Part shown: positions 23,751 to 49,607 of the stretch, piece after piece | Layout of the letters: each line of letters opens with the position of its first letter | Position numbering within the stretch: position 1 is the first letter of the stretch | NCBI GenBank assembly: GCA_017619835.1 | Contig: JAFZRN010000029.1 | Span: 1 to 64,000 of the forward strand | Origin: Eubacterium sp. | GTDB taxonomy: Bacteria; Bacillota; Clostridia; Lachnospirales; Lachnospiraceae | Length of the DNA: 64,000 nt | Direction of reading: 5' to 3' | Position numbers and translations under genes: made by a program | Notes under the pieces: model-generated | What the model saw: the letters and a program-made list of their open reading frames with translations, nothing else | Database searches by the model: none | What the model was told of the DNA's origin: nothing

Positions 23751-24144
23751 CATCATCACCTCGCTCGTATTCTAAATTAGATGATATAGGCGTTCTTTGA
23801 TATTTGATGATTCGGGCACTGTTACGGATCTCATCATTTGCTATTTTCTTAATGTCTTTCAGAAGAGTAATCATTTGATCTATCTGACTTTCGGAAACAA
23901 TTTTACTTTCGTTTGCTACCTTGGCAATTTGATTCACATTGTTACCTAGACGGGATATCTGAGTCGCAACTTCATAAAGTCCGCCATAATCAACTCGGAA
24001 GCAGAAGCCATCCCTGATAAAAGAGCGAAGTAGTTCCCTATGAGTAGTGATGCCTTCAAAGTCTTCCTTTTTTAACATTTCTTTAAAATCCTCATCTGAC
24101 AAAACCAGATCAACGTGATGTTTATTATTCTTCAATTCTTCCAT
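23737..24144 (-). CDS. mobC: MobC-family mobilisation protein
   Basis: A 135-residue protein. The C-terminal two thirds (GLYEVATQISRLGNNVNQIA, then KVANESKIVSESQIDQMITL) matches the MobC family, relaxosome proteins that help open oriT for the relaxase. ATG 24144 is chosen (GAGG 10 bp upstream); an in-frame ATG at 24252 would add 36 residues but lacks a ribosome binding site. It is translated ahead of the relaxase and overlaps it. Confidence 0.85.
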   Translation of the reverse strand: MEELKNNKHHVDLVLSDEDFKEMLKKEDFEGITTHRELLRSFIRDGFCFRVDYGGLYEVATQISRLGNNVNQIAKVANESKIVSESQIDQMITLLKDIKKIANDEIRNSARIIKYQRTPISSNLEYERGDDDGGN

Positions 24145-24272
24145 TTCTGCTATTCCTCGCTTTTCAAATATTAAGGGTTTGGGATTATCCCAAGTTTCAA
24201 AATCTCGAAAAATGGATTCTGAAGGATTTTTATTTTTGAGATTTTGGGGCAAAACAGGTGTTTGCCCAATGC

Positions 24273-24889: not shown

Positions 24890-25186
24890 ATGAAGAAGAT
24901 ATATTTTACGATTTCAGGTATGAGACATTATTTTGGAACTGACTTCCTTGAGAGGGGTGACGAAGTAAAGCTGATCAAGGAACCAGACAACGACTATGAT
25001 AAGGAAGCAATAAAAGTTGAGGTGGATGGACTCGGAAAAATTGGTTATGTTGCGAATAGTGTAAATACAGTTCTAGGCGACTGTTACAGCGCCGGAAGAC
25101 TGTATGATCACATTAAGGATAAGGATACTGCGACTGTAAAGTATATAACTGACAGAGGTGTGGTATGCGAGATTAAGAAGAAGTAG
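24890..25186 (+). CDS. stand-alone HIRAN-domain protein
   Basis: A 98-residue protein that consists only of a HIRAN domain: FTISGMRHYFG at the start, then LIKEPDNDYDKEAIKVEVD and GKIGYVANS. HIRAN domains bind DNA ends and are usually fused to SWI2/SNF2 helicases or nucleases; single-domain forms are common in mobile elements and phages. It stands just before the defence operon but is separated from it by the operon promoter. Confidence 0.8.
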   Translation: MKKIYFTISGMRHYFGTDFLERGDEVKLIKEPDNDYDKEAIKVEVDGLGKIGYVANSVNTVLGDCYSAGRLYDHIKDKDTATVKYITDRGVVCEIKKK

Positions 25187-25263: not shown

Positions 25264-25292
25264 TTTATTAACACTCGTGATTATGGTATAAT
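25264..25292 (+). promoter_or_regulatory. extended -10 promoter of the defence operon
   Basis: TGGTATAAT (TGn extended -10, hexamer at 25287-25292) with a weak -35 TTTATT at 25264-25269, spacing 17 bp. It is the only clear promoter seen before the WYL gene and should drive the operon starting at 25340. The predicted start near 25299 leaves a leader of about 40 nt. Confidence 0.7.
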
Positions 25293-25339
25293 TTACCCAT
25301 GTTTCTGTTGTTTTTTATGGGGATAAAGGAGCAATAGAT

Positions 25340-26320
25340 ATGAGGGGTAAAAATCAAAAACTTAAACTATTATTTTTAGCTAAAATAATGCAAGAGCAGA
25401 CAGATGATACACACATGCTTACTATGTCCCAAATCATTGACGAACTCGCTAAGTACGACATCGAAGCGCAACGGAAAAGTGTGTATGATGATTTGGCTGC
25501 TCTTAATTTTTATGGAATTGAAATAATCAAGTATCAGGAATTTGGAAAAACATTTTATTACTGCGGTGCCAGAGATTTTGAATTGGCTGAGCTTCATATA
25601 ATCATCGATGCCATAGCATCATCCAAATTTATTACAGAAAAGAAATCCAAAGAGTTAATTGAAAAGCTGGAACATATGGCAAGCAACTATGATGCAAAAC
25701 TCATAGATAGAGATGTTTATGTATCCGGCAGAGTCAAAAACATGAATGAAAGCATCTTCTATACAGTTGATGCTATCCAGAATGCTATAGCAAATAATCA
25801 CCGTATCACATTTCAGTATTTCAGCTGGAATGTAGATAAAGAAATGGAACTTAAGCATGATGGAAAGGTTTATGATATCAGTCCATGGGCTCTCCTTTGG
25901 GATAATGAGAACTATTATCTGCTTGGATATGATAACGAAGTAAAGGACTTCAAGCATTATCGTGTGGATAAGATGCTTCATACCGAGGAGACAAAAGATA
26001 AAAGACAGGGTGAAGCTAAGTTCAATAAACTCGATAAAGAGATATACACCAAGAAACATTTCCGGATGTTTGGCGGAGAAGAGGAGAGAATATCGCTTCT
26101 CTGTAAGAATGAAATGGCTAATGTCATCATAGATCAGTTTGGTAGAGATGTAACACTTCGGAAAGTTGATGAAGAGCATTTCAAGGTGAATGTGGATGTG
26201 GTGGTAAGTAATCAGTTCCTTTCATGGGTGATTGCGTTGGAAGGAAATGTGATGATAATCGGTCCTGATAATGTGAAAGAAGAGTTAAAAGAATTATTAA
26301 AGAAAAAGTATATGGATTGA
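25340..26320 (+). CDS. WYL-domain transcriptional regulator
   Basis: A 326-residue protein with an N-terminal winged HTH (about residues 1-75, ending SVYDDLAALNFYGIEI) and a WYL domain (about 140-235: RITFQYFSWNVDKEMEL, ISPWALLWDNENYYLLGYD, FKHYRVDKM), plus the usual C-terminal WCX-like part (VNVDVVVSNQFLSWVIALEG). WYL regulators bind nucleic-acid or nucleotide ligands and control phage-defence loci such as BREX (BrxR) and CBASS (CapW). As first gene of the long operon it is likely its autoregulator. AAAGGAG lies 9 bp before the ATG. Confidence 0.9.
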   Translation: MRGKNQKLKLLFLAKIMQEQTDDTHMLTMSQIIDELAKYDIEAQRKSVYDDLAALNFYGIEIIKYQEFGKTFYYCGARDFELAELHIIIDAIASSKFITEKKSKELIEKLEHMASNYDAKLIDRDVYVSGRVKNMNESIFYTVDAIQNAIANNHRITFQYFSWNVDKEMELKHDGKVYDISPWALLWDNENYYLLGYDNEVKDFKHYRVDKMLHTEETKDKRQGEAKFNKLDKEIYTKKHFRMFGGEEERISLLCKNEMANVIIDQFGRDVTLRKVDEEHFKVNVDVVVSNQFLSWVIALEGNVMIIGPDNVKEELKELLKKKYMD

Positions 26321-26342
26321 TTTTATTGAGGAAAATTACTAT

Positions 26343-27161
26343 ATGGATTCTGTTTTAGATATATATAAAGAACTATACGAAGGGAATCTTTTTTATGCGT
26401 TAGCAAAATATGTGGCAAATTCACAAATGGGGCTAGTATATGATTTTGGAGGAAATATAATACCATGTGGTTCGACTTTTTATAGGATAAGAAGATATAA
26501 AAAAGATAAAGACTATTCAAATAATAAAGAATGGGGGCCACCTCCTCAGGGAAAACAAGGACGTTGCAATAGTGGAAATGAAACAGTTTTATATTTGGGG
26601 AGTACTGAACAGATATGTTTATTAGAAATGCATACTCCGATTAATGGAAAGTATGTGTTAGGAAAGTATACAACTGTAAAAGATATTGAAGTGGGTGGAT
26701 ATATATCTGTTGCCCCTAATGAATCTGAATGGAAAAAAGTGATAGCAATGGCCTTCAATGCTTTTTTAATTTCTCCGGCACGAGATGAAAAGAATACAGA
26801 ATTATTCAGTATTATAGATAAGCATTTTGGGAATGGAACTTTGAGTGACATAGTGTTAAAAGATGTTTGTTCTGCTGATAATATGAAGTTGCCATACAAA
26901 ATAGGTGGATTTTTTGAGGGCAAGAATTATTACGAACTAACAAATAGAATGTGTTCAATAATTAAAGAAAGATATCCAGAAGGTATAAGATATAGTTCTT
27001 GTTATATTCCAGTAGAAACAGTAGGTATTGAATGCTCTGATTATAATATTGCCATATATGAAAACGGTTTAAGTAAGGTTAAGTTTCAAGGTTATGAGAT
27101 AAAAACTAATACTAATAAAGCAACTCCTGAGGGAATTGCAGAGATTCTTTTAAATGTTTGA
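26343..27161 (+). CDS. RES-domain protein, probable NAD-targeting effector
   Basis: A 272-residue protein. The RES signature residues are recognisable: FYRIRR (Arg48/Arg50), then GRCNSGNETVLYLG and ICLLEM (Glu95), and IRYSSC (Ser218/219). RES toxins have an ADP-ribosyltransferase-like fold; known members degrade NAD+ or modify a metabolic enzyme, usually paired with a Xre-type antitoxin. Here no such antitoxin is adjacent; the WYL protein 22 bp upstream is the only regulator. It could be the abortive arm of the island. The ribosome binding site (GAGG) is modest. Confidence 0.75.
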   Translation: MDSVLDIYKELYEGNLFYALAKYVANSQMGLVYDFGGNIIPCGSTFYRIRRYKKDKDYSNNKEWGPPPQGKQGRCNSGNETVLYLGSTEQICLLEMHTPINGKYVLGKYTTVKDIEVGGYISVAPNESEWKKVIAMAFNAFLISPARDEKNTELFSIIDKHFGNGTLSDIVLKDVCSADNMKLPYKIGGFFEGKNYYELTNRMCSIIKERYPEGIRYSSCYIPVETVGIECSDYNIAIYENGLSKVKFQGYEIKTNTNKATPEGIAEILLNV

Positions 27162-27174
27162 AGAGGTATGAAAT

Positions 27175-29301
27175 ATGGATGTAAAAAAGACTGATATAAA
27201 AAGATTTATTACTTCGAGTGATATTGTCTTTGTAATTCCCGTTTATCAAAGAAATTATGACTGGAAAAAGGAAAATTGTACTCAGTTGTATATGGATATA
27301 AAAACGCTTATTGGTATGGATAAGACGCACTTTATTGGTACTGTATGCTATAAAATGGACGGAAGATATCAAAGCGTAATAATAGATGGGCAGCAGCGTA
27401 TAACGAGTGTGATGCTATTGCTAAAGGCTCTGTATGATGTATCTGACGATGAGAGGCTAAAAGATAAGATAAAGAATCAGTTTTTGACAAATCCATATGC
27501 TGATGGAGATTTAAAACTTAAACTTAAACCTATAAAGAAAGATGAGGAAGTGTTTAAGAAAGTTATGAATGCTTCTGATGCTGTTGATGAAGATTATTTC
27601 ACCAAGGAGGAGCTTAATAGTAATATTTACAGAAACTATAAATACTTCTACGAATTAATTACCTCGGATATAAGATCTGGAATTAATGGTCAGGATATAG
27701 AAGACGCCGTTGAAAGGCTTGAAGTGGTTGAAATTTGCCTGACTGAAGAAAATCCACAAGTTATTTTTGAAAGTTTAAATTCTACTGGTTTAGGTCTAAC
27801 TAATACAGATCTTCTTAGAAACTATCTTCTTATGTCGATGGATTATAAAGATCAAGAATATTTATATCAGAATTATTGGATGCAGATTGAGAATTTGTTG
27901 GATTCAGAGAATATGGAATTATTTATGGTTCATTATCTGATAATGAAACGTAAGAGTAATGACATATCTGAAAATGGTAAGTCCGCAAAGATAACAGCTA
28001 GAAATCTATATTATGCATTTAAGAAGCAATTCCCACAGATAGGAAAAGGGAATGCAAAAGAAGAAGTAGAAGAATGCTTTAAGGATATGTATAGATATGC
28101 TCGTTTCTATAAGCATTTTATATATGACGACAGTATAAATGTTAGAAATCTTCAGCCGGTTGATAAAAAACTGTATGAATTATTCTTTTTACTTGCTGAG
28201 AAAAATGCTGCCATTCTTGTGATGTACCTATTTGATAAGTTTGATCGTGAGCTTATAGATCAGGATACATTTATTAAAACGATAGATATATGTATATCAT
28301 TCTCTTTTAGAAGCAAAGTATGTAATAGAGGTGGTTTTTCACCACAGTTTGCAGCATTATCAGTTCAAAAGCTAGATCCCCAGCCAATAGATGATAAGTT
28401 TTTAAGCAGATTTTGGTCTGCAATGACTAGCGGAAGAGGAAGATACGCTTTCCCAACCAATAGTGAATTTAAGATTGCTTTGGTAAATGGTAATACATAT
28501 CAGTCGTTAAGAAGCGCAGGATCAAAATATTTATTATATTCAATAGAAAAGAATATGCCACATTCTAAGGAATTACCTGAATATAAAAACGGAACAGTAG
28601 AACATGTTATGCCACAAACATTAAGCGATTCCTGGAAAAAATACATAGCAAAGCATGGTGGTATCGAGAAGTATGAAAAATATACGCATTCTTTGGGAAA
28701 TTTGACTCTGACAAACTATAATAGCTCTCTTTCAAATAAAGAATTTGACATAAAGAAAGAAGAGTATAAGCAATCCAACTATGCATTTACAAAGGAGCTA
28801 GCTGATGTTAGCGAATGGACAAGTGAAGTGATAGTATCTCGTGGTGAAAGAATGGCTGATATAGCTACGCAGATTTGGATAATAGATGAAGACTACGATC
28901 AGAATCCTGGAACAGAAATAGGTGTTGTTTATGACTTAAATGCAGACTTTGCTGCATTCTTTGGTACAAAACCAGCTGTTGTATCTATTTTAGGCGAAGA
29001 ACATTCGGTTACTAATTGGTCAGATATTGTTAGTCTGGTAGCAGATAAGTTTTATATGCTTGCTCCAGATACCTTTAGGGGACTTATAAACTGCAATGAT
29101 TTTCCTGGTAAGAAAAAAGTTATTGACTTAGATGATAGCAATATGCCAGCAGCTCATAAGATTGATGATAATCTTTATATTAGTACAAAATATGATGTTG
29201 TTAATATGCTTAATATAGTCAAGACTATTGTATGTTACTTTGACAAGCATGATGACACAGATTTTATAAATGATGTATGGTTTACACTTAGAAAGAAGTA
29301 G
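27175..29301 (+). CDS. DUF262-DUF1524 (GmrSD-like) restriction nuclease
   Basis: A 708-residue protein. The DUF262 ParB-like NTPase domain shows IPVYQRNYDW and DGQQR (71-75). The DUF1524 HNH-type nuclease shows VEHVMPQT (His477) and LGNLTLTNYNSSLSNKEFD. About 135 further residues form an extra C-terminal domain often seen on restriction proteins. GmrSD-type enzymes are type IV systems that cut DNA with modified bases (for example glucosylated hydroxymethylcytosine) using NTP. It is 13 bp after the RES gene and 8 bp before the methyltransferase gene, so it may be the nuclease of a modification-sensing complex. Confidence 0.85.
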   Translation: MDVKKTDIKRFITSSDIVFVIPVYQRNYDWKKENCTQLYMDIKTLIGMDKTHFIGTVCYKMDGRYQSVIIDGQQRITSVMLLLKALYDVSDDERLKDKIKNQFLTNPYADGDLKLKLKPIKKDEEVFKKVMNASDAVDEDYFTKEELNSNIYRNYKYFYELITSDIRSGINGQDIEDAVERLEVVEICLTEENPQVIFESLNSTGLGLTNTDLLRNYLLMSMDYKDQEYLYQNYWMQIENLLDSENMELFMVHYLIMKRKSNDISENGKSAKITARNLYYAFKKQFPQIGKGNAKEEVEECFKDMYRYARFYKHFIYDDSINVRNLQPVDKKLYELFFLLAEKNAAILVMYLFDKFDRELIDQDTFIKTIDICISFSFRSKVCNRGGFSPQFAALSVQKLDPQPIDDKFLSRFWSAMTSGRGRYAFPTNSEFKIALVNGNTYQSLRSAGSKYLLYSIEKNMPHSKELPEYKNGTVEHVMPQTLSDSWKKYIAKHGGIEKYEKYTHSLGNLTLTNYNSSLSNKEFDIKKEEYKQSNYAFTKELADVSEWTSEVIVSRGERMADIATQIWIIDEDYDQNPGTEIGVVYDLNADFAAFFGTKPAVVSILGEEHSVTNWSDIVSLVADKFYMLAPDTFRGLINCNDFPGKKKVIDLDDSNMPAAHKIDDNLYISTKYDVVNMLNIVKTIVCYFDKHDDTDFINDVWFTLRKK

Positions 29302-29309
29302 GTTGATAT

Positions 29310-30239
29310 ATGAATGAGATTTTTAATCTTAATGAATATCCAGTTGTAAATGTTTTAGGTTTGTTATTAAAGGATAAAACTACAAAAAAGAATATTATTT
29401 TTGCAACTAATGCGTATTCAGATATTGATTCCAAGATTACTGAAAAAACCCAAATTACTGAAGCTCTTCTTCTTAAAATTGGTTTTGATAAAATCAAAAC
29501 TCGAGTTGATAAATCTGAAGAAGATCAGGTGAAGAGAACAAGAAAAAAAGCAGAAGTTTTCACTCCTTCTTGGATATGCAATAAAATGAATAATCATTGT
29601 GATACTGAATGGTTTGGAAGAGAAGGTGTGTTTAATACCGAAAAAGGTCAGACATGGGTTGTAAATGAATTACCAATTGAGTTTTCGAATGAAAACGATT
29701 GGAAAAAGTATGTTGATTCGAAAAGACTCGAAATCACATGCGGTGAGGCTCCTTATATTGTTTCAAGGTATGATGTGGCGACTGGAGAGTTTATTGAAAT
29801 AAACAATAGAATAGGCATACTTGATAGGAAGCTTCGTGTGGTTAATGAAAACACTGATACTAAGGAGCAGTGGGTTTTATGGGTTACTAGAGCATTTCAA
29901 AGCGTTTATGGATATGAGTTTCAGGGAGATAATGTCCTTATTGCAAGAGTGAATCTGCTTTTGACTTTTACTGAATATTACAAAGATAGGTGGGGAGATA
30001 CTCCAGAAGATAATGAATTAAAGAAAATTGCAAATATTATAGTATGGAATATTTGGCAAATGGATGGAATTACAGGTACTGTTCCATTTGGGAAACCAAA
30101 AGAAGAGAATAGACAACTAACATTTTTTGATTACATGCAGGGAATAAATGATACAGAAGATGAAGAGATGGACTGTATTATTAGAGATTGGAGAAGTGAC
30201 AGAACCCTAACATATAGAAGTATAAAGGAAGGAAAATAA
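29310..30239 (+). CDS. N-terminal half of a split DNA methyltransferase (SAM-binding part)
   Basis: A 309-residue protein with AEVFTPSWICNKM (81-93, motif X-like) and LEITCGEAPYI (140-150, motif I-like SAM loop), then the conserved segments RIGILDRKLRVV and YGYEFQGDNVLIARVNLLL. It lacks the catalytic NPPY motif, which begins the next ORF after a stop and a single base (30240). The two ORFs together have the order X-I-IV of an N6-adenine methyltransferase of the Eco57I class. The downstream gene has its own ribosome binding site (AAGGAAGG), so this looks like a natural two-subunit form and not a recent nonsense mutation. Confidence 0.75.
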   Translation: MNEIFNLNEYPVVNVLGLLLKDKTTKKNIIFATNAYSDIDSKITEKTQITEALLLKIGFDKIKTRVDKSEEDQVKRTRKKAEVFTPSWICNKMNNHCDTEWFGREGVFNTEKGQTWVVNELPIEFSNENDWKKYVDSKRLEITCGEAPYIVSRYDVATGEFIEINNRIGILDRKLRVVNENTDTKEQWVLWVTRAFQSVYGYEFQGDNVLIARVNLLLTFTEYYKDRWGDTPEDNELKKIANIIVWNIWQMDGITGTVPFGKPKEENRQLTFFDYMQGINDTEDEEMDCIIRDWRSDRTLTYRSIKEGK

Positions 30240-30240
30240 A

Positions 30241-31326
30241 ATGAAATTTGATTTTGTGATTGGCAACCCACCTTATCATGAGGAGGTTGAGGGTAATGAT
30301 AAAGGAAAACCTTTATATAATTATTTTTATGATGAGGCAGAGAAAATTGCTGACTGTTATGAGTTTATTTCTCCGGGGAGATTTTTATTTAATGCTGGAA
30401 TGACTTCGAAAAAGTGGAACGAAAAAATGTTAAATGATAAGCATTTTAAAGTTCTGCAGTATATGTCTGATAGTAAAGAAGCTTTCCCTAATACTGATAT
30501 AAAGGGTGGCGTAGCTATAACTTTTAGAAATGCAAATGAAGAGTATCAAGCGATAGAAGAATTCATTGTAGATGAAAATCTTAGAAACATAGTTCAAAAA
30601 GTTAAATCCAATGATTCTGAAAGTATTTCTAATTATATGTATGGGGGGAGAGCAGATTTAAAGTTCAATGATTACTTCCTTAATAAGTTTCCAAATTATG
30701 TATCGGATAGAATAAAAGCAACTCAAGTTAAGCATCCTACGGTAACATCATTACCTCCTGGTGAAGAATATGAAATCAGAAATCGAATATTTGAGGATGC
30801 ACCATATATTTTTTCTTCGGATTTTCCTGCAGAAGAGAAAGAAGAGTATTATAAGATATTAGGCTTATATAAGAGTAATAGAGAATATAGGTGGATAAAA
30901 AAGGAATATTTAATTATTCGATATCCAGAAAACAATAATATATTTGATTATAAAGTGTATATTTCAAAAGCGTCTGGAACAGGAGCTTTTGGAGAAAAAA
31001 TAGGAGAACCGGTGATAGGTTATCCAGGAGAATTTTCTACTCCAACTTTTATTGGGATCGGAAAATTTAATAAGAAAATAGAAGCAATAAATGCGTCTAA
31101 GTACCTAAAAACAAGGTTTGTTAGAGCCTTATTAAGTGTATTAAAAATAACACAAGACATTGTCCCTACAAAGTTTAAATATGTTCCTATGCAGGATTTT
31201 TCTGATAATTCTGATATTAATTGGAACGTTTCTATATCAGATATTGATAACCAATTATACAAAAAATATGATTTATCAGAAAATGAAATAGTTTTTTTAT
31301 TAAATAATGTAAAGGAGATGGAGTAG
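30241..31326 (+). CDS. Eco57I-type methyltransferase, catalytic NPPY part
   Basis: A 361-residue protein that begins almost at the catalytic motif: MKFDFVIGNPPYHEE (NPPY 9-12), followed by FISPGRFLFNAGMTSKKW and KGGVAITFRN, all typical of the Eco57I/type IIG N6-adenine methylase family. The rest should contain the target recognition region. No SAM-binding motif I is present, so it must pair with the upstream 309-residue protein, or with the methyltransferase-like tail of the next protein. Its stop is directly followed by the next ATG (zero gap). Confidence 0.8.
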   Translation: MKFDFVIGNPPYHEEVEGNDKGKPLYNYFYDEAEKIADCYEFISPGRFLFNAGMTSKKWNEKMLNDKHFKVLQYMSDSKEAFPNTDIKGGVAITFRNANEEYQAIEEFIVDENLRNIVQKVKSNDSESISNYMYGGRADLKFNDYFLNKFPNYVSDRIKATQVKHPTVTSLPPGEEYEIRNRIFEDAPYIFSSDFPAEEKEEYYKILGLYKSNREYRWIKKEYLIIRYPENNNIFDYKVYISKASGTGAFGEKIGEPVIGYPGEFSTPTFIGIGKFNKKIEAINASKYLKTRFVRALLSVLKITQDIVPTKFKYVPMQDFSDNSDINWNVSISDIDNQLYKKYDLSENEIVFLLNNVKEME

Positions 31327-34300
31327 ATGGAAAGACCAAACATTAAAACAACTGAAAAAGTCGTTCCGATGATATATGCCTACACTACTCCAGGGATTAC
31401 TTATCATGATGGCTATATCAAGATAGGATATACTGAGCAAGAAGTTGATAAAAGAATATGGCAGCAGACACACACAGCCGGAATAAAGGCAAAAAAGGAA
31501 TGGCAGGGTAATGCTGTTTTTGATGATGGATCAAACGAGAGATTTACTGATCATCATTTTCATGCATATTTGAGAAAAAACGATATTAAACAGCCGCAAG
31601 ACCTAGGCAATGATTATTTTGATAAAGACGATAGGAATGAGTGGTTTTATATATCTCCTTCTGATTCAAGGAATATGTTTTACGATTTTAGGCAAAACAG
31701 AGGAATATTAGACAACATTTCTGAGGTGATTCCTTATGAGTTAAGAGATGAGCAAAAGGATGCAGTTTCTAAAACCGTAGAATACCATAATAATCATGAC
31801 AGAGGAGAGTTTCTATGGAATGCCAAACCGCGTTTTGGAAAGACTTTGGCTGTATATGATTTTGTAAAAAAAATTGATGCAAAAAAGGTTTTGATTGTGA
31901 CGAATAGACCTGCAATAGCTAATTCATGGTACTCAGATTATATGAGATTTATGGGCAGAGAATCTGGATATGCTTTCGTTAGCGAGGTTGATGCTCTTAA
32001 GAACAGGGATGGAGTTCTATCAAGAAATGAATATATATTGCAATGTGACTTTAAGAGTGGTCTTACTAACATTATTGAGTTTGTAAGTCTTCAGGATATG
32101 AAAGGATCAATCTATTTTGGTGGTGAATACGATAAGCTGAAGGAAGTGAGTCGTAAATCAGGAATGGTTTGGGATGTTCTAGTTATAGATGAAGCTCACG
32201 AGGGAGTAGATACATATAAGACAGATGTTGCTTTTGATCAGATAGATAGATTGTTTACTCTTCATTTGTCTGGAACTCCATTTAAAGCACTTGCTAATAG
32301 CAAGTTTAACAGCAATGCAATATATAATTATACATATGCTGATGAACAACAAAGAAAGCGTGATTGGGATGAGACAAAGGGAGTAGAAAATCCATATGAA
32401 TCTCTTCCTAAGTTGAATTTATATACTTATCAAATGTCTGAAATTATTCGGGATGAGTTATCACAGGGAATTGAAATACAAGGCGAAACTGTTGAATATG
32501 CGTTTGATTTGAATGAGTTTTTCAGTACACAAAATGGGCGATTTGTTCATGAGAGTTCAGTTGATAAATTTTTAGATGCATTAACTTGTCAAACAAAATT
32601 TCCGTTTTCAACAGAAGAACTTCGCACAGAGTTAAAACATACTTTCTGGCTACTCGATAGAGTGGAGAGTGCTAGAGCACTGGTAAAAAAACTCAATGAA
32701 CATCCAGTATTTCAGTATTATAAGGTGATTCTTGCAGCTGGAGATGGAAAGATTGATGATAATGATGAGACTATGAAGTCATATGACAAAGTAGTAAAAG
32801 CTATTGAAGAAAATGACAAAACTATTACGGTATCCGTTGGTCAGCTAACAACTGGAATAACTATTCCTGAATGGACTGGTGTTCTGATGCTTAGTAATAT
32901 TAAATCTCCTGCTTTATATATGCAGGCTGCTTTCAGAGCTCAAAATCCATGTATATTTGAAAAAGATAACGTTTTTGAGAGGAAAGAAAATGCTTATGTA
33001 TTTGATTTCGATCCAGCGCGAACACTTGTAATATTTGAAGAGTTTGCAAATGATTTGTCTCCAAATACATATGCTGGAAGGGGCGATGTTGAAACTAGAA
33101 AGAATAATATAAAAGAGCTTCTTAATTTCTTCCCAGTAATTGGTGAAGATGAAGATGGTGAACTAATAGAGCTTGATGCTGAGAAGGTTTTAACAATCCC
33201 TCGAAAGATAAAATCCGTTGAAGTAGTTAGAAGAGGATTTATGAGTAACTTCCTTTTCCAAAATATCAGTAATGTTTTCTCAGCTCCAAAGGAAGTATTA
33301 GATATTATAGAACAATTTGAAGCTATTGAGGAACCAAAGCGTAAGATTGAAATATCTAAAGAAGTTCAGGAAGAACTTTCTTTAGACGAAAATGGTGAAG
33401 TGTCCCTTAGTGATGAATATGTCATTGGAAAAGAAACTGAGCTTTTTGGTAATAAGCATTATGATATCTTGGATGAGGTACATGAGGCTGTTGCAGAATA
33501 TAATACCAAGAATGATAATAAGGATTCTTTTAGTAACAGATTGAAGCAAATGGTTAAAGATAATATCGTTAAGGATATTGTTGATACAGTTGAAGAAAAA
33601 TATGGGGAGAATATACGTAAATCTGACAAGAAACAGGTGGAATCCCAGCTAAATGCTGATGCTGAAAGAAAAATTGATAAAGCTGTAAGTGAATATAATA
33701 TAGAAAAGAATCTTGTTGAAAAAGATCGTTTAGAAGCAATGAGATCGCGTCATGATACTGGAAAAACCTCTGAAGAAATAAATGACGAATTTGATAAAAA
33801 ACAACAAGAAATCATGGAACGATTTAAAACTGGACTTGATAATGTTGTAGAGGAATTCACTAAGACTTCTATTCATGAAACTGTAGAAAAAGTTGAAACA
33901 AAAATAAAGGAAAGAGAAAGAGATACTATAGAAGATGGCATTAGAGATCATTTGAGAGGTTTTTCTAGGACAATTCCTTCGTTTTTGATGGCTTATGGTG
34001 ATGATTCTGTTACACTTGCAACATTTGATAATGTTGTTCCTGATAAGGTCTTTCCTGAGGTTACAAGTATAACTCTTGAACAGTTCCGTTTCCTTAGGGA
34101 TGGTGGAAAATATACTGATGAAGAAACGGGCGAAGAAAAAGAATTTTCTGGTCAGTTATTTGACTCTGTGGTATTTGATGATTCAGTAAAAGAGTTTTTG
34201 ACATTAAAGAAGAAACTTGCGGATTACTTTGATGAAAAGAGTATCGAAGATATTTTCGATTACATTCCACCACAGAAGACTAATCAGATATATACACCTA

Positions 34301-34677: not shown

Positions 34678-34697
34678 AGCATAGAAGGGTGTATCAT

Positions 34698-39773: not shown

Positions 39774-39797
39774 TTTACTTAATAAGGGGAATGAATC

Positions 39798-41258
39798 ATG
39801 GCAAATGGTTTAACACTTGGCATAAGTACAATAGGTGATTTGCTATTACAAAACAAGATATCGATGATATCAGACGGAAGTTCATTGAACGATATAAATC
39901 TGGTTATTCCAGAGTATCAGCGTCCATACAAGTGGTCTGCTAAGAATGCAAATCAGCTACTAGACGATATTGAAGAATCCAAGAATGCAAATAAGGAAGT
40001 TTATAGAGTTGGAACGCTTATCCTCCATCATGATGAACATGATAACTACAACATAGTTGATGGACAGCAACGTACTATAACTTTTTCTTTATTGCTAAGT
40101 GCTCTTAAACAGGGACCTATTTCATTCATTAGTCAGAAATTATCTAGTAATAGTTTTAACCTCCATAATGTTATGAATAACTATCGGGCTTTTGGTAGAA
40201 GAATAGATAAGCTTTTTGATGAGAAGGATATTAAAGACTTGACTGATTATATTATTAATCATTGTGAGCTGATTATAGTTATTACAAATGATTTATCAGA
40301 AGCCTTCCAGTTTTTTGATTCACAGAATGCTCGCGGAAAGTCTCTATATCCACATGATCTTCTTAAGGCATATCATCTTCGTGAGATGAAAGATATAGAA
40401 GTTTCTGAGATCGAACATGTCGTTAAGATGTGGGAGGAACTTAATCAAAAGCATCTGTCGGTACTTTTTAATGAATATCTTTACCGGCTGAAGGAATGGA
40501 TTAAAGGAAATAAAGCTGGAGAGCTTACTGAACATAATATAGAACTCTTTAAGGGGGTTAATTCTAGGGATAACCATCCTTATGCACAGTATTATAAAGG
40601 GGCCTTTTCGTATGCTTATGAGCTGAATCATTCGCATGTGCCATTTGTTACAGGAATACAGGATGTCAGTCCGTTCCAGCTGAATGCGCCTATCATAGCT
40701 GGAAAACCATTCTTTGAATATACTAAGCATTATTTTGATATCCTTGCCGATATCCAGAATAATGATAAGTATGAAGGTTATTTTATAAACGATAATGAGA
40801 TAGTAAAGACACTGGATTTGAGAAAGTATAAGAATGGTGTGGGAAATAGAATAACACGACTGATGTTTGATACTGCAATTCTTTTATATGTAGATAGATT
40901 TTGTCCGTCGATACCTTCTAGAACTGATCTGGAATATCTTGATCAGTTTGTAGTATTTACGTTTGTTTGGGCTTATTCAATGCGTGCCCAGTACAGAAAT
41001 GTAGGTTGGCAAGTGGCTCAGAATTATGTGATGGGTGAGGTGAGCAAAGAAGGGATAGTTAATGGTTTTAATATATATAAGGTAATCTCTGAATCCGATT
41101 CGCCAAGTGTTCTGCTAAGTAGATTGGCAGATATGGTAGTTCCGCTTGAAAATTCTAAGATTAAAGCAAATATGGAGAATTATAACGAAGACGTAGATGG
41201 TGTTTATCAAAACTATCTGCATTATTTTGAAGTACATAAATTCTGGGAGGGCAGATAG
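39798..41258 (+). CDS. DUF262-domain protein (GmrS-like)
   Basis: A 486-residue protein. DUF262 motifs are clear: IPEYQRPYKWS (38-48) and IVDGQQRTITFSLLL (DGQQR 88-92). The C-terminal half is helical and lacks the HNH signature of DUF1524. It is followed with zero gap by a DUF262-DUF1524 protein, so the two probably form a complex in which this one supplies NTPase or regulatory function. DUF262 domains bind and hydrolyse NTPs (GmrS half of GmrSD). Confidence 0.8.
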   Translation: MANGLTLGISTIGDLLLQNKISMISDGSSLNDINLVIPEYQRPYKWSAKNANQLLDDIEESKNANKEVYRVGTLILHHDEHDNYNIVDGQQRTITFSLLLSALKQGPISFISQKLSSNSFNLHNVMNNYRAFGRRIDKLFDEKDIKDLTDYIINHCELIIVITNDLSEAFQFFDSQNARGKSLYPHDLLKAYHLREMKDIEVSEIEHVVKMWEELNQKHLSVLFNEYLYRLKEWIKGNKAGELTEHNIELFKGVNSRDNHPYAQYYKGAFSYAYELNHSHVPFVTGIQDVSPFQLNAPIIAGKPFFEYTKHYFDILADIQNNDKYEGYFINDNEIVKTLDLRKYKNGVGNRITRLMFDTAILLYVDRFCPSIPSRTDLEYLDQFVVFTFVWAYSMRAQYRNVGWQVAQNYVMGEVSKEGIVNGFNIYKVISESDSPSVLLSRLADMVVPLENSKIKANMENYNEDVDGVYQNYLHYFEVHKFWEGR

Positions 41259-43289
41259 ATGGCCAAAACAGTGCTTCCTCTTAGAGAGGTATCAATTGAA
41301 GAATTATTCTGTGGAAGTGAACCATGCACATATGAGATTCCTATATACCAGAGGAATTATGCCTGGGAGAAGGATGAGATTTCGGCTTTAGTTCAGGATG
41401 TATATGATGCATATAAGAAGAATACTGGTAGACCATATTATATAGGGACATTAGTTTCATATAATAAAGGTGATCGTGTATATGAAATAATTGATGGCCA
41501 GCAGAGACTTACAACTATAAGGCTTCTCCTTGGGGTATTAGGTATTACTCCAAATAATAAACTGACTTATAGAGCCAGAAGAAAGTCGGATGAGACAATA
41601 AAGAGTATTCCGGAATTCAAGATAGAGGAAAGAGACGCTGGAATAGAAAATGGATATAAATATGCAAGAGCTTCTGTAGGAGATATAGTCCCTAAGGATG
41701 AGATGACTGCTTATATCAATTTCTTTAAATCTAGCGTTCATATTATTCATTATCAGGTTCCGAAGGACATAGATTTGAATCATTATTTTGAAATAATGAA
41801 TTCTAGAGGCGAACAGCTTGAAAAGCATGAAATCGTTAAAGCTAAGCTTATGGAAAAACTTAATGATGACGAAGAAAGAAAAGTATTTAATCGTATATGG
41901 GAATGTTGCTCAGATATGAGTGTTTATGCACAGCAATCCTTAAGCGATTTTAAACCCGAGGAAGTATTTGGATATAATTTGTCTGAATTTAAACCACAGA
42001 GTTTTGAAGAACTGATTACTTTATATAGAAATCATAATAAAGAGACTTCAGCTAATCACTCAATTTCTATCTCTGAAATAATTGATATGGAAAGTAAAGG
42101 TAATTGGATACAGCTTGAGGCTGATTTTGATAAGAAGGATTCATTCTTACCAATAATTGATTTTCCCAATTTTCTTCTTATAGTTCTTAAGATTTCTAGA
42201 ATGAAGGAATGGAACTTCGAGCCGGAGCTCTTCAATCTCGATGATAAGGAACTCCTTAATGAATTTAATGATGCAAAGATGGATGCTGATGCCATAAAAG
42301 CATTCTCATTTAATCTGCTTAAATCAAAATGGTTGCTTGATAATTATATAGTTCATCATTCAAAGGAAGAGGATACGCTTGATAGTAATCCATGGAAACT
42401 TCAGGTATGGCGTAAAGACGAAGATACAAGAAAAGGTCAGCTGAGAAATCTTATTAGTGATTTGACTCTTCAGAATAAATTGACACATTTACTTTCTATG
42501 TTTGAAGTTTCTTTTACGCCAAGACAAAGAAAAAATTACTTATTCTATACGCTGTTTTATCTCCTTGGTAATGATATAAACGATTATCAAAGCTATGCTA
42601 CATTTGTTGAGAGTCTTGCGGATAAATACTTTTATAATGTTTATCTTGATGGAACAAAGCTCAATGCTATAAATACGCCTATGCCTGGCAGTTTTGATGG
42701 AGTTGTACTAAGAAATAATAAACTTGATATTATGAATATTGCACCAAGGACTACGGATGATTTCATACATGTATATGGAGATGGTGTGGAAGCTTCTAAG
42801 GGAGTTCCTCTGTTTGTATTTAACTATCTGGATTATAAGCTTTGGGAAAAATATGATGATGAGCTTAGAGGCGAAAGGAAGAAAGAAGGTAGCCGGGAAC
42901 GTAGAGATTTTTTTGATAAACTTGGCTGCGGAGATTTCGGACTGAAGGTATTTGATCAGTTTTATTTTTCAAGAACTAGAAGAAGTCTTGAACACTATTA
43001 TCCTCAGGCAACTGCAACTGGAGAACCTGGTGTACTTGATCAGAATCAGATTAATTGTCTGGGTAATTATGCAATGATTGGTAGTGAAGCTAACAGTTCA
43101 GGATCCAATTGGAGCCCGAAAACTAAGCTTGATCATTATCTGGATCCATCCGGAAAGATTGGACAAGTAAGTGTTGCGTCATTGAAATTTATGATAATGA
43201 TGCAGATATGCAAGGACAATCAGACCTGGGAATTTGAAGAAATAAAGAATCATCAAGATAAGATGATGGATATACTATTTAGTAAATAG
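41259..43289 (+). CDS. DUF262-DUF1524 (GmrSD-like) restriction nuclease, second copy
   Basis: A 676-residue protein with IPIYQRNYAWEKDE (27-40), IIDGQQRLTTIRLL (DGQQR 79-83) and the DUF1524-type HNH segment LEHYYPQ (His579) followed by NCLGNYAMIGSEANSSGSN. Architecture matches the protein at 27175, but sequence agreement outside the motifs is low and the second nuclease half-motif differs (N...S in place of N..SLSNKEF). ATG 41259 directly follows the stop of the DUF262-only gene. It is likely the nuclease of a two-component type IV restriction system. Confidence 0.82.
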   Translation: MAKTVLPLREVSIEELFCGSEPCTYEIPIYQRNYAWEKDEISALVQDVYDAYKKNTGRPYYIGTLVSYNKGDRVYEIIDGQQRLTTIRLLLGVLGITPNNKLTYRARRKSDETIKSIPEFKIEERDAGIENGYKYARASVGDIVPKDEMTAYINFFKSSVHIIHYQVPKDIDLNHYFEIMNSRGEQLEKHEIVKAKLMEKLNDDEERKVFNRIWECCSDMSVYAQQSLSDFKPEEVFGYNLSEFKPQSFEELITLYRNHNKETSANHSISISEIIDMESKGNWIQLEADFDKKDSFLPIIDFPNFLLIVLKISRMKEWNFEPELFNLDDKELLNEFNDAKMDADAIKAFSFNLLKSKWLLDNYIVHHSKEEDTLDSNPWKLQVWRKDEDTRKGQLRNLISDLTLQNKLTHLLSMFEVSFTPRQRKNYLFYTLFYLLGNDINDYQSYATFVESLADKYFYNVYLDGTKLNAINTPMPGSFDGVVLRNNKLDIMNIAPRTTDDFIHVYGDGVEASKGVPLFVFNYLDYKLWEKYDDELRGERKKEGSRERRDFFDKLGCGDFGLKVFDQFYFSRTRRSLEHYYPQATATGEPGVLDQNQINCLGNYAMIGSEANSSGSNWSPKTKLDHYLDPSGKIGQVSVASLKFMIMMQICKDNQTWEFEEIKNHQDKMMDILFSK

Positions 43290-43340
43290 GACAATTGTTT
43301 TATAGAGAGAAGATACTGTTTTATCATAAGAGGATAGATA

Positions 43341-43787
43341 ATGAGTAATTCCGATAATCCTAAAAATGGAGCAGCTTTTCAAAGGGCTGTAAAAGTTTGG
43401 TTCGAAAATGAATATAATCATATATTTGTACTTGAAAAGAAAATTGCAATTGGAAAGCCTCCTAAGGATCATAAATTTGATTTAGTTTGTGATGAAGAAA
43501 ATATTGTTATTGAATGTAAGAGATATACTTGGACGAAAACAGGAAATGTTCCTAGTGCGAAAATGGGATTTACAAATGAAGCTGCATTCTATCTGTCTTT
43601 TCTTCCGCATAATAAAACTAAGTATATTGTGATGCTTTGTTCTTATCATCCTAAAAGAAACGAAAGTTTGGCAGAATATTATTATCGTACATATAAGCAC
43701 TTGATTGGTGATATTCATATTTTGGAGTATGATCCAGAAAAAAATGTGATGAGAGAAATAACGGATTGTGGAAAATCTGAAATATAG
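43341..43787 (+). CDS. PD-(D/E)XK nuclease-like protein
   Basis: A 148-residue protein. KFDLVCDEENIVIECKRYTW gives the D-(X)10-E-X-K core of the PD-(D/E)XK nuclease fold (Asp47, Glu58, Lys60), preceded by a helix starting GAAFQRAVKVWFENEY. Size fits a single nuclease domain. It may cut DNA as part of the island or mark a small stand-alone restriction factor. The 51 bp gap before it is the longest inside the operon; a weak internal promoter cannot be excluded. The flavodoxin gene follows after 13 bp. Confidence 0.7.
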   Translation: MSNSDNPKNGAAFQRAVKVWFENEYNHIFVLEKKIAIGKPPKDHKFDLVCDEENIVIECKRYTWTKTGNVPSAKMGFTNEAAFYLSFLPHNKTKYIVMLCSYHPKRNESLAEYYYRTYKHLIGDIHILEYDPEKNVMREITDCGKSEI

Positions 43788-43800
43788 GGAGGATTATTTA

Positions 43801-44283
43801 ATGAGTAAAGCATTAGTTGCATATTTTTCAGCTACTGGAACTACAGGTGTTATTGCAACAAAATTAGCTGAAACCATAAATGCAGATTGTTATGAGATAG
43901 TTCCAGCTGATTTGTATACAAACGCAGATCTCGATTGGCGTGATGAAAACTCTAGAAGCTCTATAGAAATGAAGAAGGAACCGAATTGTAGACCTGTTAT
44001 TGGTAGTGCTCCAGTAGACAATATGGATCAGTATGATGTGATCTTTGTCGGATATCCTGTGTGGTGGTATATCTGCCCTAAAATAATTAATACATTTCTT
44101 GAAAATTATAATCTTTCAGGAAAGACTATAGTTCTTTTTGCAACTTCTGGTGGATCTGGGTTTGGAAAATCCGTTGAGAGTTTAGAAGACAGTGCTCCTA
44201 ATGCAAGAATAGTTGAGGGAGCTGTTCTTAATGGCGTTAAGTCTGCTGAAGAATTAAAGGCGTTTGCAAAGAAGTATTTATAG
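43801..44283 (+). CDS. flavodoxin
   Basis: A 160-residue flavodoxin-like protein. The phosphate-binding loop is SATGTTGVIA (10-19) after the first strand ALVAYF, and the flavin-stacking segments include GYPVWWYICP and ATSGGSGFGKS. GGGAGG stands 7 bp before ATG 43801; a longer frame from 43768 overlaps the nuclease gene and is not favoured. It should carry FMN and transfer electrons. A flavodoxin inside a nuclease/helicase operon is unusual: it may be an acquired bystander, or supply electrons or redox sensing to the system. Confidence 0.88.
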   Translation: MSKALVAYFSATGTTGVIATKLAETINADCYEIVPADLYTNADLDWRDENSRSSIEMKKEPNCRPVIGSAPVDNMDQYDVIFVGYPVWWYICPKIINTFLENYNLSGKTIVLFATSGGSGFGKSVESLEDSAPNARIVEGAVLNGVKSAEELKAFAKKYL

Positions 44284-44307
44284 GTTTAATACTGTGGAGG
44301 CTTGTGA

Positions 44308-46698
44308 TTGGGCATATTTGATTCGATTATAAACAGATTTAAATCTAAAATTGAATATAAAAAAGAATTATCACAGAACATTAAGGAACTGGAAAGGGAA
44401 CTAAGAGCGTTCTTAAAACAGAATTCTAATGAATATATTTATAGATACAGTTATAAGGATCTTGACAATCGTTGTAAAGAACTGGAGCTTCTTTCTGTAA
44501 AAAATCATGTTTCTGTGAAATCCTTACAGTCTTCTGTTATAAGTTTTTATCGGGATATAGAACTACATAATAATCAGGTTTTAGATAAGAAGATAAAAGA
44601 AGGGTATTCAATAATAGGTGATGTGGAAGGACAACAATTGGATCCTCAGCAGATGGCTTGTATAGTTAAAGATGCGGATAGTCATATTGTTGTTGCGGGC
44701 GCAGGAACCGGAAAAACTACTACTATCCTGGGAAAGGTAAAATACTTATTAAATGTGTATAATGCTGATCCGCAGGATTTTCTTATTTTATCATTTACTA
44801 ATGCAGCTGCAGATGAAATGAAGAAAAGACTTCATAAAGAAACTAATAAAGATTTCTATGTAGCTACATTTCATAAACTTGGTTATGACATTATTAGAAG
44901 AACACAGGGCATTACACCTAAGGTTTTTGAAAACGGAATGAATAGCTTTGTGAATGATTATGTTTTCAAAGATTCTCTGGATGCAGCATATAAAAGAAAA
45001 ATGCTGAATTATGTTTTGTATCATAATGTAAAAGTTCGCTCGGAGTTTTCTTTCGAAGATGAGGATGAATATAAGGATTACCTAAAAACTAATCCGCCTA
45101 CAAGTATAAAGGATGAGGTGCTTAAGAGTTATGGGGAAATGGAAATAGCTAATTTCCTTGCTCAGCATGGAATTAACTATCAGTACGAGGCAGCTTATCC
45201 CCTAGATACAAGAGATGAAGAATATGGTCAGTATCATCCTGATTTTTATCTCCCGGATTATAATATCTACATAGAGTATTTTGGAATAGATAGAAAAGGA
45301 AATGTTCCGGATTATTTTTCTGATAAAGATGGAAAATCAGCGTCGGAAATTTATCGTGAAGGAATTGAGTGGAAAAGACGGATTCATAAAGAGAATGGAA
45401 CGACACTAATTGAGTGCTATGCGTATGAACATTTTGAGGGGATGTTATTAAACAATCTCAAGGAAAAGCTTTCTGGTGTTGAAATGAGAGATTTATCTCT
45501 TGAAGAAATAGTGGGTTCCAGAAAAGGTAAAAATATTCTGTCGACATTATCAAATACAATGGCCACAGTTATAACCCTTTGTAAGAATAGGCGTATTGAT
45601 TCCCAAGGTATCAAATCTATTAATTGTGATGCTGCGCTGGTTGAACTGATTTTTCCTGTTTTTGTAGATTATGAGACATTTCTTACAGAGAATAATTATG
45701 TTGATTTTGCAGATATGCTTAATCAAGCAACAGATGCTGTTGTGGATAACAAATTTGAGCATGTATTTAAATATGTTATTGTTGATGAGTACCAGGATAT
45801 ATCTACAGCACAGTATCAGCTGTTAAAAGCTTTAAGAAACCAGTCTCACTACAGCTTGTTTTGTGTTGGTGATGATTGGCAGAGTATATATAGGTTTGCC
45901 GGTAGTGACATAGGTTATATTTTGAATTTTGACAAATATTGGGGCGATTCTGAACTGAGCAGAATAGAAACTACATATCGTTTTTCTCAAAGACTTATAG
46001 ACATATCTAGCAACTTTGTTATGAGTAATCCTAACCAGATAAAGAAACAGATTCGATCTGGAAATAATATAGAACAATATGTTATTGGAAATATAAATGG
46101 ATATACAGAACAAAATGCGATCAGTTTTATGGTTGATAAAGTCAAAACACTTCCTCAAAACTCAACAGTGTATTTTCTTGGAAGATATCAATTTGATATA
46201 GATTGCTTAGGAAAAGGCTTTACTCTCAGATATGATAATGCTAATAAGGTTAATCAAGTAATACTGCAATCAAGACCTGATCTAAAAATGTATTTTTATA
46301 CTGTTCATAAATCGAAAGGTCTTCAGGCGGATTATGTGTTTATTCTTAATAACAAAAATACATACATGGGATTCCCCAGCAAGGTACAGAATCCTCCATT
46401 GATAGAATATCTTCTTGAGCAATCAGATGATTTCCCTGACTCAGAAGAAAGAAGACTGTTCTATGTTGCTTTGACAAGAGCAAGGAGGCGTGTTTATTTA
46501 GTGACTGAAGGCAAGAAGATTTCTTCTTTTGCAAATGAAATAATTTCAAAATATGGTGAGGAGATAAAGAAAGAGGCTTGGACATGTCCTCTCTGCGGAG
46601 GACAGCTGCGAAAAGTTAAAGGGCCATATGGTGAGTTCTATGGTTGTTCAAATTATAGGGTGAATGGCTGCAGATATAAGAGAAATCTGAAGGCTTAA
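44308..46698 (+). CDS. UvrD-like SF1 helicase with nuclease insert and zinc ribbon
   Basis: A 796-residue protein; TTG 44308 is chosen because GGAGG lies 7 bp upstream. Helicase motifs: LDPQQ Q-motif, AGAGTGKT (130-137), LSFTNAAADEM, VIVDEYQDIS, DDWQSIYRFAGSD and YVALTRARRRVYLV. Between the first motifs is an insert with a nuclease-like core HPDFYLPDYNIYIEYFG (Asp312, Glu323). The C-terminus is a four-Cys zinc element (CPLCGG...GCSN...GC) like those of topoisomerases. Such proteins occur in defence islands and may resect or unwind phage DNA. It ends the operon and its stop overlaps the terminator. Confidence 0.85.
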   Translation: MGIFDSIINRFKSKIEYKKELSQNIKELERELRAFLKQNSNEYIYRYSYKDLDNRCKELELLSVKNHVSVKSLQSSVISFYRDIELHNNQVLDKKIKEGYSIIGDVEGQQLDPQQMACIVKDADSHIVVAGAGTGKTTTILGKVKYLLNVYNADPQDFLILSFTNAAADEMKKRLHKETNKDFYVATFHKLGYDIIRRTQGITPKVFENGMNSFVNDYVFKDSLDAAYKRKMLNYVLYHNVKVRSEFSFEDEDEYKDYLKTNPPTSIKDEVLKSYGEMEIANFLAQHGINYQYEAAYPLDTRDEEYGQYHPDFYLPDYNIYIEYFGIDRKGNVPDYFSDKDGKSASEIYREGIEWKRRIHKENGTTLIECYAYEHFEGMLLNNLKEKLSGVEMRDLSLEEIVGSRKGKNILSTLSNTMATVITLCKNRRIDSQGIKSINCDAALVELIFPVFVDYETFLTENNYVDFADMLNQATDAVVDNKFEHVFKYVIVDEYQDISTAQYQLLKALRNQSHYSLFCVGDDWQSIYRFAGSDIGYILNFDKYWGDSELSRIETTYRFSQRLIDISSNFVMSNPNQIKKQIRSGNNIEQYVIGNINGYTEQNAISFMVDKVKTLPQNSTVYFLGRYQFDIDCLGKGFTLRYDNANKVNQVILQSRPDLKMYFYTVHKSKGLQADYVFILNNKNTYMGFPSKVQNPPLIEYLLEQSDDFPDSEERRLFYVALTRARRRVYLVTEGKKISSFANEIISKYGEEIKKEAWTCPLCGGQLRKVKGPYGEFYGCSNYRVNGCRYKRNLKA

Positions 46699-46725
46699 AG
46701 AATGGTTATTCTTTAAGGCCTTTTT
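46691..46725 (+). terminator. rho-independent terminator of the defence operon
   Basis: CTTAAAGAAT (46694-46703) and ATTCTTTAAG (46708-46717) are perfect complements, loop GGTT, and AGG/CCT extends the stem past a one-base bulge. TTTTT follows. It overlaps the helicase stop codon. Confidence 0.85.
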
Positions 46726-48029: not shown

Positions 48030-48047
48030 TACACGGGAGGATTCTGA

Positions 48048-49584: not shown

Positions 49585-49607
49585 TTCTTTGTTGGTGGAG
49601 TATTGTA

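Follow-up and report, generated by a model that had tools for sequence, protein, structure and literature searches.

A probable modular defence operon on a mobilizable island of Eubacterium sp., with separable restriction layers behind a HIRAN-WYL head

Does a long run of closely spaced defence genes encode one machine, several systems behind one regulator, or an accumulation of insertions? This question is raised by a stretch of 64,000 nucleotides from Eubacterium sp. (Lachnospiraceae), contig 35 in a genome of 2.75 Mb and 44 contigs, which at its full length is called the window (L plus number denotes a locus or DNA stretch that was read, G plus number a genome). Between positions 25,340 and 46,698 of the window, twelve open reading frames lie on the plus strand, the first encoding a WYL-domain transcription regulator and the last a UvrD-family helicase; a HIRAN-domain gene, absent from the original prediction made from this DNA, ends 153 bp upstream of the WYL gene. 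We read the run as a modular defence operon on a mobilizable island, with separable restriction layers behind a HIRAN-WYL head, and give this reading a probability of roughly two thirds: the layers are regarded as separable systems and not as subunits of one machine because the modules were found apart. The modules recur apart from each other and the head recurs with other defence cargo; the parts are mostly of known kinds, and the exact stack is new among the genomes examined. Co-occurrence elsewhere had been set as a test by the original prediction: the whole gene order was found in no other genome examined, and similar stacks were present in L031 and L282 as well as restriction-modification (R-M) genes before the HATPase/helicase gene in seven other loci.

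Layout of the gene run

The head, the run and the candidate signals at its ends are listed in the order of their position (aa, amino acids; SF, helicase superfamily; E-values follow the model names).

24,890-25,186, plus strand: HIRAN-domain protein, 98 aa (Pfam HIRAN 3.2e-13)
25,284-25,292, plus strand: extended -10 element TGGTATAAT, candidate promoter of the run, read from the sequence, without a good -35
25,340-26,320, plus strand: WYL-domain transcription regulator, 326 aa (Pfam WYL 3.9e-12; PADLOC WYL 1.7e-27)
26,343-27,161, plus strand: RES-domain protein, putative NAD+-consuming effector, 272 aa (Pfam RES 3.2e-05, 24.4 bits versus a cut-off of 23.2)
27,175-29,301, plus strand: GmrSD-type protein, DUF262 + DUF1524, 708 aa (Pfam GmrSD_N 7.5e-35, GmrSD_C 8.1e-29)
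29,310-30,239, plus strand: split methylase, N-terminal half, 309 aa (PADLOC MTase_II 2.9e-99 over nearly the whole protein; no Pfam match)
30,241-31,326, plus strand: split methylase, C-terminal half with NPPY, probable target recognition, 361 aa (Pfam Eco57I 2.9e-14)
31,327-34,677, plus strand: GIY-YIG (T5orf172) + SF2 helicase, restriction subunit, 1116 aa (Pfam T5orf172 9.3e-05, ResIII 7.1e-13)
34,689-39,773, plus strand: sacsin/GHKL HATPase + UPF1-like SF1 helicase, 1694 aa (Pfam SACS 1.5e-12, AAA_12 1.3e-23, also AAA_11)
39,798-41,258, plus strand: TgvA-like protein, DUF262 + DUF7834, 486 aa (Pfam GmrSD_N 3.8e-29, DUF7834 6.2e-58)
41,259-43,289, plus strand: TgvB-like protein, DUF262 + DUF1524, 676 aa (Pfam GmrSD_N 7.9e-33, GmrSD_C 1.1e-06)
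43,341-43,787, plus strand: PD-(D/E)XK-like nuclease, 148 aa (motif by eye; 57% homologue in L301)
43,801-44,283, plus strand: flavodoxin, 160 aa (Pfam Flavodoxin_4 5.9e-59 on the open reading frame from 43,768)
44,308-46,698, plus strand: UvrD-family helicase with C-terminal zinc ribbon, 796 aa (Pfam UvrD-helicase 9.5e-49, Zn_ribbon_Top1 2.4e-08)
46,689-46,723, plus strand: terminator-like RNA hairpin that overlaps the UvrD gene at its end (-14.5 kcal/mol, z -2.1)

The intergenic gaps from the WYL to the UvrD gene amount to 22, 13, 8, 1, 0, 11, 24, 0, 51, 14 and 24 bp; with the likely starts of the HATPase/helicase gene (34,698; protein of 1691 aa) and the flavodoxin gene (43,801), the sixth gap becomes 20 bp and the tenth 13 bp. 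Recomputation of the gaps confirmed the original prediction of eleven same-strand genes behind the WYL gene at spacings of 0-51 bp, and Pfam and PADLOC supported its domain labels; for the PD-(D/E)XK label, the motif was recognized by eye and no match of the 148-aa protein was obtained in Pfam, PADLOC or NCBIfam. The postulated single promoter and terminator held in part: an extended -10 element precedes the WYL gene and a hairpin marks the end of the UvrD gene, yet “single” is unproved because of a weak promoter-like site (9/12) within the 51-bp gap (43,299-43,327). The promoter scans as such decide nothing, since promoter-like sites were rarer than in shuffled sequence (65 versus 94.6; 54 versus 70.3). 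Six of 200 shuffles folded as well as the hairpin at the UvrD end, which was not reported by the consensus terminator scanner applied to the window. We infer that the run is transcribed as one unit.

Restriction modules inside and outside the run

Both features that define the split-methylase GIY-YIG R-M module, i.e. two methylase halves and a GIY-YIG SF2 helicase, are present in the run. The halves are likewise encoded by separate genes before the helicase in L031, L033-L034, L035, L108 and G276 (in L028 and L029, helicase and second half form one fused protein, the helicase first); since the split is conserved across loci, it is regarded as natural, and a frameshifted methylase was rejected (split kept in L031, L033, L035, L108 and G276). 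Near full-length relatives of the helicase were detected in five other genomes of a 150-genome sample of the family (any match at E <= 0.001: 15 of the 150, own genome included), and 31 of the 83 plasmid records contained relatives aligned over 80% or more of the query; the viral contigs contained no match to the single-sequence helicase query. The identities to the window proteins (first half/second half/helicase) are 65/23/70% in L108 and 66/42/68% in G276, and those of the second half and the helicase in L026 are 43% and 69%. The stronger divergence of the second half may be explained by the expected variation of the specificity-setting half; the low value in L108 (locus 599-5,891) suggests that this half was replaced there. 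At E <= 1e-8, the four plasmid R-M loci read (of the 83 records) matched none of the other defence genes of the window, and L026 contains two annotated WYL genes on the other strand at about 6 kb from the R-M. Outside this run, the split R-M is a free-standing module.

The DNA search within the genus (query 27,175-46,698, i.e. without the WYL and RES genes; 61 genomes including the own) located the R-M in one genome (G276), the UvrD gene in two others (G279, G295) and flavodoxin-like DNA in many genomes; the 60 other genomes contained at most about 155 bp of the HATPase/helicase gene, the GmrSD gene or the DUF262 pair. The R-M of G276 is preceded by a recombinase-like gene (by eye); behind it lie remnants of broken UvrD and flavodoxin genes. 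L031 repeats the plan of the window on a smaller scale: one strand carries, in succession, a WYL gene (31%), both methylase halves, the helicase and, 15 bp behind the R-M, a gene for a 585-aa GmrSD protein with both domains. In G037 (L168), a broken WYL gene is located about 0.5 kb before a GmrSD-type gene.

Two units of the GmrSD type are present in the run. The single 708-aa protein carries the YQR, DGQQR, FxxxN and EHxxP/GNL motifs and is matched in PADLOC best by Orf5 (8.8e-109), then by HEC-06 (5.5e-66). The two genes of the DUF262 pair follow each other without a gap, with GmrSD_N in both and GmrSD_C in the second only; in alignments of eight loci, DGQQR is invariant in both genes, and H579, N603 and N617 in the second. 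By these sequence features the pair is filed as a putative TgvAB-like two-gene type IV restriction system. Its first gene has relatives in five other genomes of 150 searched in the family: the complete pair occurs in L157 (64% and 54-57% identity), with no R-M neighbor; in L159/L284 the pair is cut by the contig end, in L160/L282 the second gene is short, in L161/L285 only the first gene is present, and L164 is cut inside the first gene. In all six plasmid loci read (L169, L170, L244-L247; chosen from 1,049 records matching the second gene, mostly Klebsiella) the two genes are adjacent: they lie 2 bp behind HsdS of an HsdR-HsdM-HsdS set in L247, 415 bp downstream of a type III pair in L245 and about 1.6 kb from HsdR in L244, have a PDC-S37 helicase upstream in L169 and an annotated PD-(D/E)XK protein upstream in L170, and are without upstream R-M in L246. 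In the viral contigs, the single-sequence TgvA-like query had no match.

According to the sequence comparison, the HATPase/SF1-helicase fusion is a conserved family for which no full-length model exists in PADLOC, NCBIfam or Pfam. In all five members scanned by PADLOC (window and four relatives), TmtA matched the N-terminal and MkoA/MkoC the C-terminal part, never the full length; in NCBIfam, the sacsin ATP-binding domain exceeded its cut-off and helicase models matched weakly, and each of the solved relatives is partial (sacsin; Sen1/SMUBP2/Dna2/UPF1-type helicases). A four-sequence profile retrieved 298 relatives from the genome collection, the best 80 of which were kept; together with two viral and two plasmid loci and the window, these form a set of 85 loci. 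Identity amounts to 29-55% over the first 1,000 aa (23 relatives) and to 49-67% over the helicase half (19 relatives). The 79 tree rows comprise twelve phyla by record title (titles of metagenome-assembled genomes can mislead), and the family genome G190 contains a member as well. In the available excerpts of the literature on sacsin, anti-phage defence and helicases, no description of this architecture was found; searches joining Tiamat, Mokosh and HATPase, or the TOTE conflict system or TOTE with HATPase, likewise yielded none.

The neighbors of this gene vary. No same-strand partner is present within 150 bp in 41 of the 85 loci (some contigs being short or cut), and a PDC-S68-like gene adjoins it in twelve (PADLOC match for L080, the others of 607-1,249 aa called by BLAST cluster). 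R-M genes are located directly upstream (<150 bp) in eight, i.e. the window, L046, L047 and L092 (N6_N4_Mtase + ResIII), L083 (MTase_III + REase_III), L071 (MTase_III, the next gene without PADLOC match), and L085 and L131 (labeled by BLAST cluster); in L110, a Mod-like gene lies further downstream. On the FastTree phylogeny of the 79 rows, the R-M neighbor is scattered, since seven changes are needed for eight rows (500 shuffles gave a mean of 7.8, and 92 of them a count as low); five of these eight rows belong to one Bacteroidota-type clade of eight rows. In the nearest relative, L080 (about 60%), PDC-S68 precedes and a TOTE-type primase-helicase follows the HATPase/helicase; for this reason, the R-M neighbor in the window is probably a later exchange. 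L108 combines the same split R-M, 420 bp of DNA, a PDC-S68-like gene and the HATPase/helicase. On the contig of L080, the stretch L048 (1,073-11,018) encodes the HATPase/helicase, an AEP-TOTE primase-helicase with PLD domain, an Abi_2 protein and a macrodomain protein; in L061 (566-6,476), 172 bp separate an ADP-ribosylglycohydrolase-like gene from the HATPase/helicase gene behind it.

The HIRAN-WYL head, the remaining genes and the island

A HIRAN match (E <= 1e-12) was found in 47 of 397 family genomes, own genome included, at 52 places. The WYL search covered 200 family genomes (119 with a WYL protein at E <= 1e-40) and 26 of these places: at six of them, including the window, the HIRAN gene is located less than 300 bp upstream of a WYL gene on the same strand, compared with about 0.03 expected by chance, and one further HIRAN gene lies 187 bp from a WYL gene of opposite strand. 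Eight same-strand heads were read downstream, and four lead defence genes (window, L282, L286 and L287). In L282, the genes for an SNF2-type helicase, DUF4391, type III Mod and Res, a McrB-like AAA protein, McrC, a DUF262+DUF7834 protein and a 398-aa DUF262 protein follow; in L286, a helix-turn-helix (HTH) protein and a type I methylase precede the contig end; in L287 (5,508-15,099), the head stands before a type I-B CRISPR-Cas locus (Cas6b, an unscanned gene, Cas7b, Cas5b, Cas3b, Cas4b and Cas1b). Among the stretches with the best WYL relatives (39 of 40 read), L231 is a BREX locus (BrxC) and L205 contains Cas9. Of the wHTH-WYL-WCX architecture of BrxR-type regulators, WYL scored above and WCX just below the Pfam cut-off in the window protein, and Pfam reported no HTH; 40 upstream regions contained no operator-like dyad or k-mer clearly above the shuffled sets, the window presenting 5+5-bp dyads only. 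According to published work, HIRAN binds DNA 3' ends and WYL proteins bind single-stranded DNA (PMC9503650, PMC12409362), and prokaryotic HIRAN domains have been termed uncharacterized (PMC11090510); a joint action of HIRAN and WYL is our own proposal.

With respect to the remaining genes, a RES relative (E <= 1e-8) was found in one of 199 other family genomes, where it lies among type I R-M-like genes (L283; by eye), and none was found in the plasmid records. The best NCBIfam model for the UvrD protein was helicase IV, below its cut-off. A fixed nuclease-UvrD pair is not claimed: the UvrD match in L301 is a 31-aa zinc ribbon. A host-like origin of the flavodoxin gene was rejected by its third-position G+C content of 0.23, which resembles that of the remaining run.

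The run is flanked by two sets of mobility genes:

22,272-24,252, minus strand: relaxase and MobC, mobilization genes of the island (Pfam Relaxase 2.9e-30, MobC 1.8e-09)
53,055-54,284, plus strand: Tn916-type tyrosine integrase of the island (Pfam Phage_integrase 1.7e-25, Integrase_DNA 2e-16)

The G+C content is 31-35% across 26,001-50,000 and 38-45% in most of the flanks; since this low-G+C stretch lies between MobC/relaxase and the integrase, the run is placed on a mobilizable island. The ends of the latter are only approximate because the longest direct repeat between the compared flanks has 14 bp; the search for an empty site among genus genomes gave scattered matches only. The third-position G+C of the HIRAN (0.41) and WYL (0.37) genes resembles that of ten flanking genes (0.35-0.50), whereas the other eleven run genes are lower (0.20-0.30); the head and its downstream cargo may therefore have different histories.

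Behind the run, a second co-directed run (46,794-50,795) encodes an ADP-ribosylglycohydrolase, a 143-aa protein, a Sel1-repeat protein and a 395-aa protein, and is closed by a strong terminator-like hairpin at 50,824-50,855; in L301, a 31% relative of this 395-aa protein precedes the 57% homologue of the window nuclease. At 51,272-51,508, a short HTH-type frame resembles, by eye, an N-terminal piece of a WYL/DeoR-type regulator. Upstream of the integrase lie two adjacent similar genes (51,991-52,759; 110 and 118 aa; by eye), perhaps duplicated excisionase-type genes; behind each of them stands a promoter-like sequence, TTGACT-17-TATGCT (at 52,343 and 52,778).

Rival readings, proposed function and known systems

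Several observations weigh against a modular operon behind a common head. The HIRAN gene adjoins a WYL gene in a minority of loci only (6 of 26; a same-strand WYL gene directly behind HIRAN in 4 of 20 further stretches, some of them picked for a known neighbor), four of the eight heads read (L226, L228, L289 and L296) lead no recognized defence genes, and in the 39 best WYL neighborhoods none of the downstream same-strand genes corresponds to another gene of the run. L282 has a short second DUF262 gene without nuclease-domain match, the R-M of G276 stands beside broken UvrD/flavodoxin genes without WYL, HATPase/helicase or DUF262 genes, the RES match barely exceeds its cut-off, and the 51-bp gap before the nuclease gene may contain an internal promoter. 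Defence genes, moreover, cluster without being coupled. A passive accumulation, in which unrelated defence genes were successively inserted at a tolerant island site and are transcribed by read-through, without shared regulation or synergy, would agree with the remnants beside the R-M in G276, with the mostly different neighbors of the WYL homologues and with the heads lacking defence cargo; the WYL gene at the head, the uniformly short gaps and the similar WYL-headed stacks of L031 and L282 make it an unlikely account.

One obligate multi-subunit machine resembling DISARM, Hma or MADS, formed by the methylase, GIY-YIG helicase, HATPase/helicase, DUF262 pair, nuclease and UvrD protein, is quite improbable: the tight one-strand spacing and the R-M directly before the HATPase/helicase in eight of 85 loci are in line with such a machine, but its modules were found apart, the full set was present in no other genome examined, and no Hma or mad model was among the PADLOC matches listed for the window proteins. 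Of the two forms offered by the original prediction, the fusion of two or three systems therefore stood, with at least three separable restriction modules and two helicase units behind the WYL gene, and the co-regulated multi-layer system with obligate partners did not, as R-M, HATPase/helicase and DUF262 pair occur apart. A very low probability is given to an ADP-ribose/NAD+ stress operon, in which WYL would be a sensor of ADP-ribose products and RES a consumer of NAD+; ADP-ribosylation would be undone by the ADP-ribosylglycohydrolase encoded downstream (46,794-48,029), with the restriction genes as companions. The position of RES as second gene, the ADP-ribosylglycohydrolase just past the hairpin and the arrangement in L061 point in this direction, as do the WYL regulators described in ADP-ribosylglycohydrolase operons, and HIRAN and WYL each beside the ARPP gene (PMC9503650); yet a 95-bp gap with the hairpin separates the two runs, RES and ADP-ribosylglycohydrolase occur together in no other locus read, and the RES match is weak.

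Within the modular operon, the HIRAN-WYL head would keep a long transcription unit low until the WYL domain binds a nucleic-acid or nucleotide signal that reports infection or damage, and the unit is derepressed; the HIRAN protein would perhaps report DNA ends to WYL. Self DNA would be marked, and DNA without the mark cut, by the split methylase and GIY-YIG helicase; DNA with phage modifications that defeat such R-M would be cut by the single GmrSD protein and by the TgvAB-like pair; the HATPase/SF1 helicase, as well as the nuclease with UvrD, would process or sense damaged or replicating DNA, and NAD+ depletion by RES could serve as a last resort. We infer the induction, the targets and every enzymatic activity; by analogy, restriction in layers, directed at unmodified as well as modified phage DNA and controlled by one regulator, is the most likely function. 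We tentatively go further, and with considerable doubt, in proposing both that HIRAN-WYL is a portable two-gene infection sensor switching exchangeable immunity cassettes (type I-B CRISPR-Cas, type I R-M, type III R-M with McrBC and DUF262 genes, and the window stack) and that the HATPase/helicase is a plug-in effector, undescribed relative to the searched literature and libraries, which was repeatedly recruited to R-M of different classes. The run suggests that in Lachnospiraceae, too, layered restriction, of unmodified and then of modified DNA, is built as one co-directed WYL-headed run, and that type IV genes follow R-M genes whose classes are unrelated; the HIRAN-WYL pair is a possible switch for several immunity classes, and the HATPase/helicase family spans about a dozen phyla (by record titles) while being absent at full length from the libraries used. 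Less usual in this run are its length, the two GmrSD-type units, the HATPase/helicase and the HIRAN gene before WYL.

Compared with known systems, the R-M module resembles the type IIG-like R-M with GIY-YIG helicase (PADLOC REase_MTase_IIG) carried by plasmids in enterococci and lactic acid bacteria in its methylase halves and helicase, and differs by its three separate genes, with the methylase halves first, inside a longer run. Tiamat and Mokosh each share one part of the 1694-aa protein in the PADLOC models: TmtA matches the N-terminal part only, in the window protein as in the four relatives, and MkoA the C-terminal part only (mkoB was not sought). PDC-S68, a RecD-like PADLOC candidate, is an operon partner of the HATPase/helicase elsewhere and not in the window's run. 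TgvAB consists of two DUF262 genes within a type I R-M that are both needed and act on phages with modified cytosines (PMC11411939, PMC12409362); in GrwAB, the partner protein differs (PMC12137116). The window pair shares with TgvAB the gene order (DUF262 with an own C-terminal domain, then DUF262+DUF1524), the frequent vicinity to R-M, the YQR, DGQQR and FxxxN motifs in both genes and the His-Me residues in the second; it differs by its position 5 kb behind the R-M, after the HATPase/helicase, and is 33-36% identical to the two Vibrio plasmid pairs with which it was compared. A toxin-antitoxin regulator inside a type I R-M has been described (PMC12255303), and BrxR is a WYL repressor controlling BREX and the type IV enzyme BrxU (PMC9122601). 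This pEFER island (BrxR/BREX/BrxU) is similar to the window in that a WYL regulator stands with a combined modification-based and type IV (GmrSD) defence locus; the window differs by another R-M class, no BREX genes, the HIRAN gene before WYL and two GmrSD-type units.

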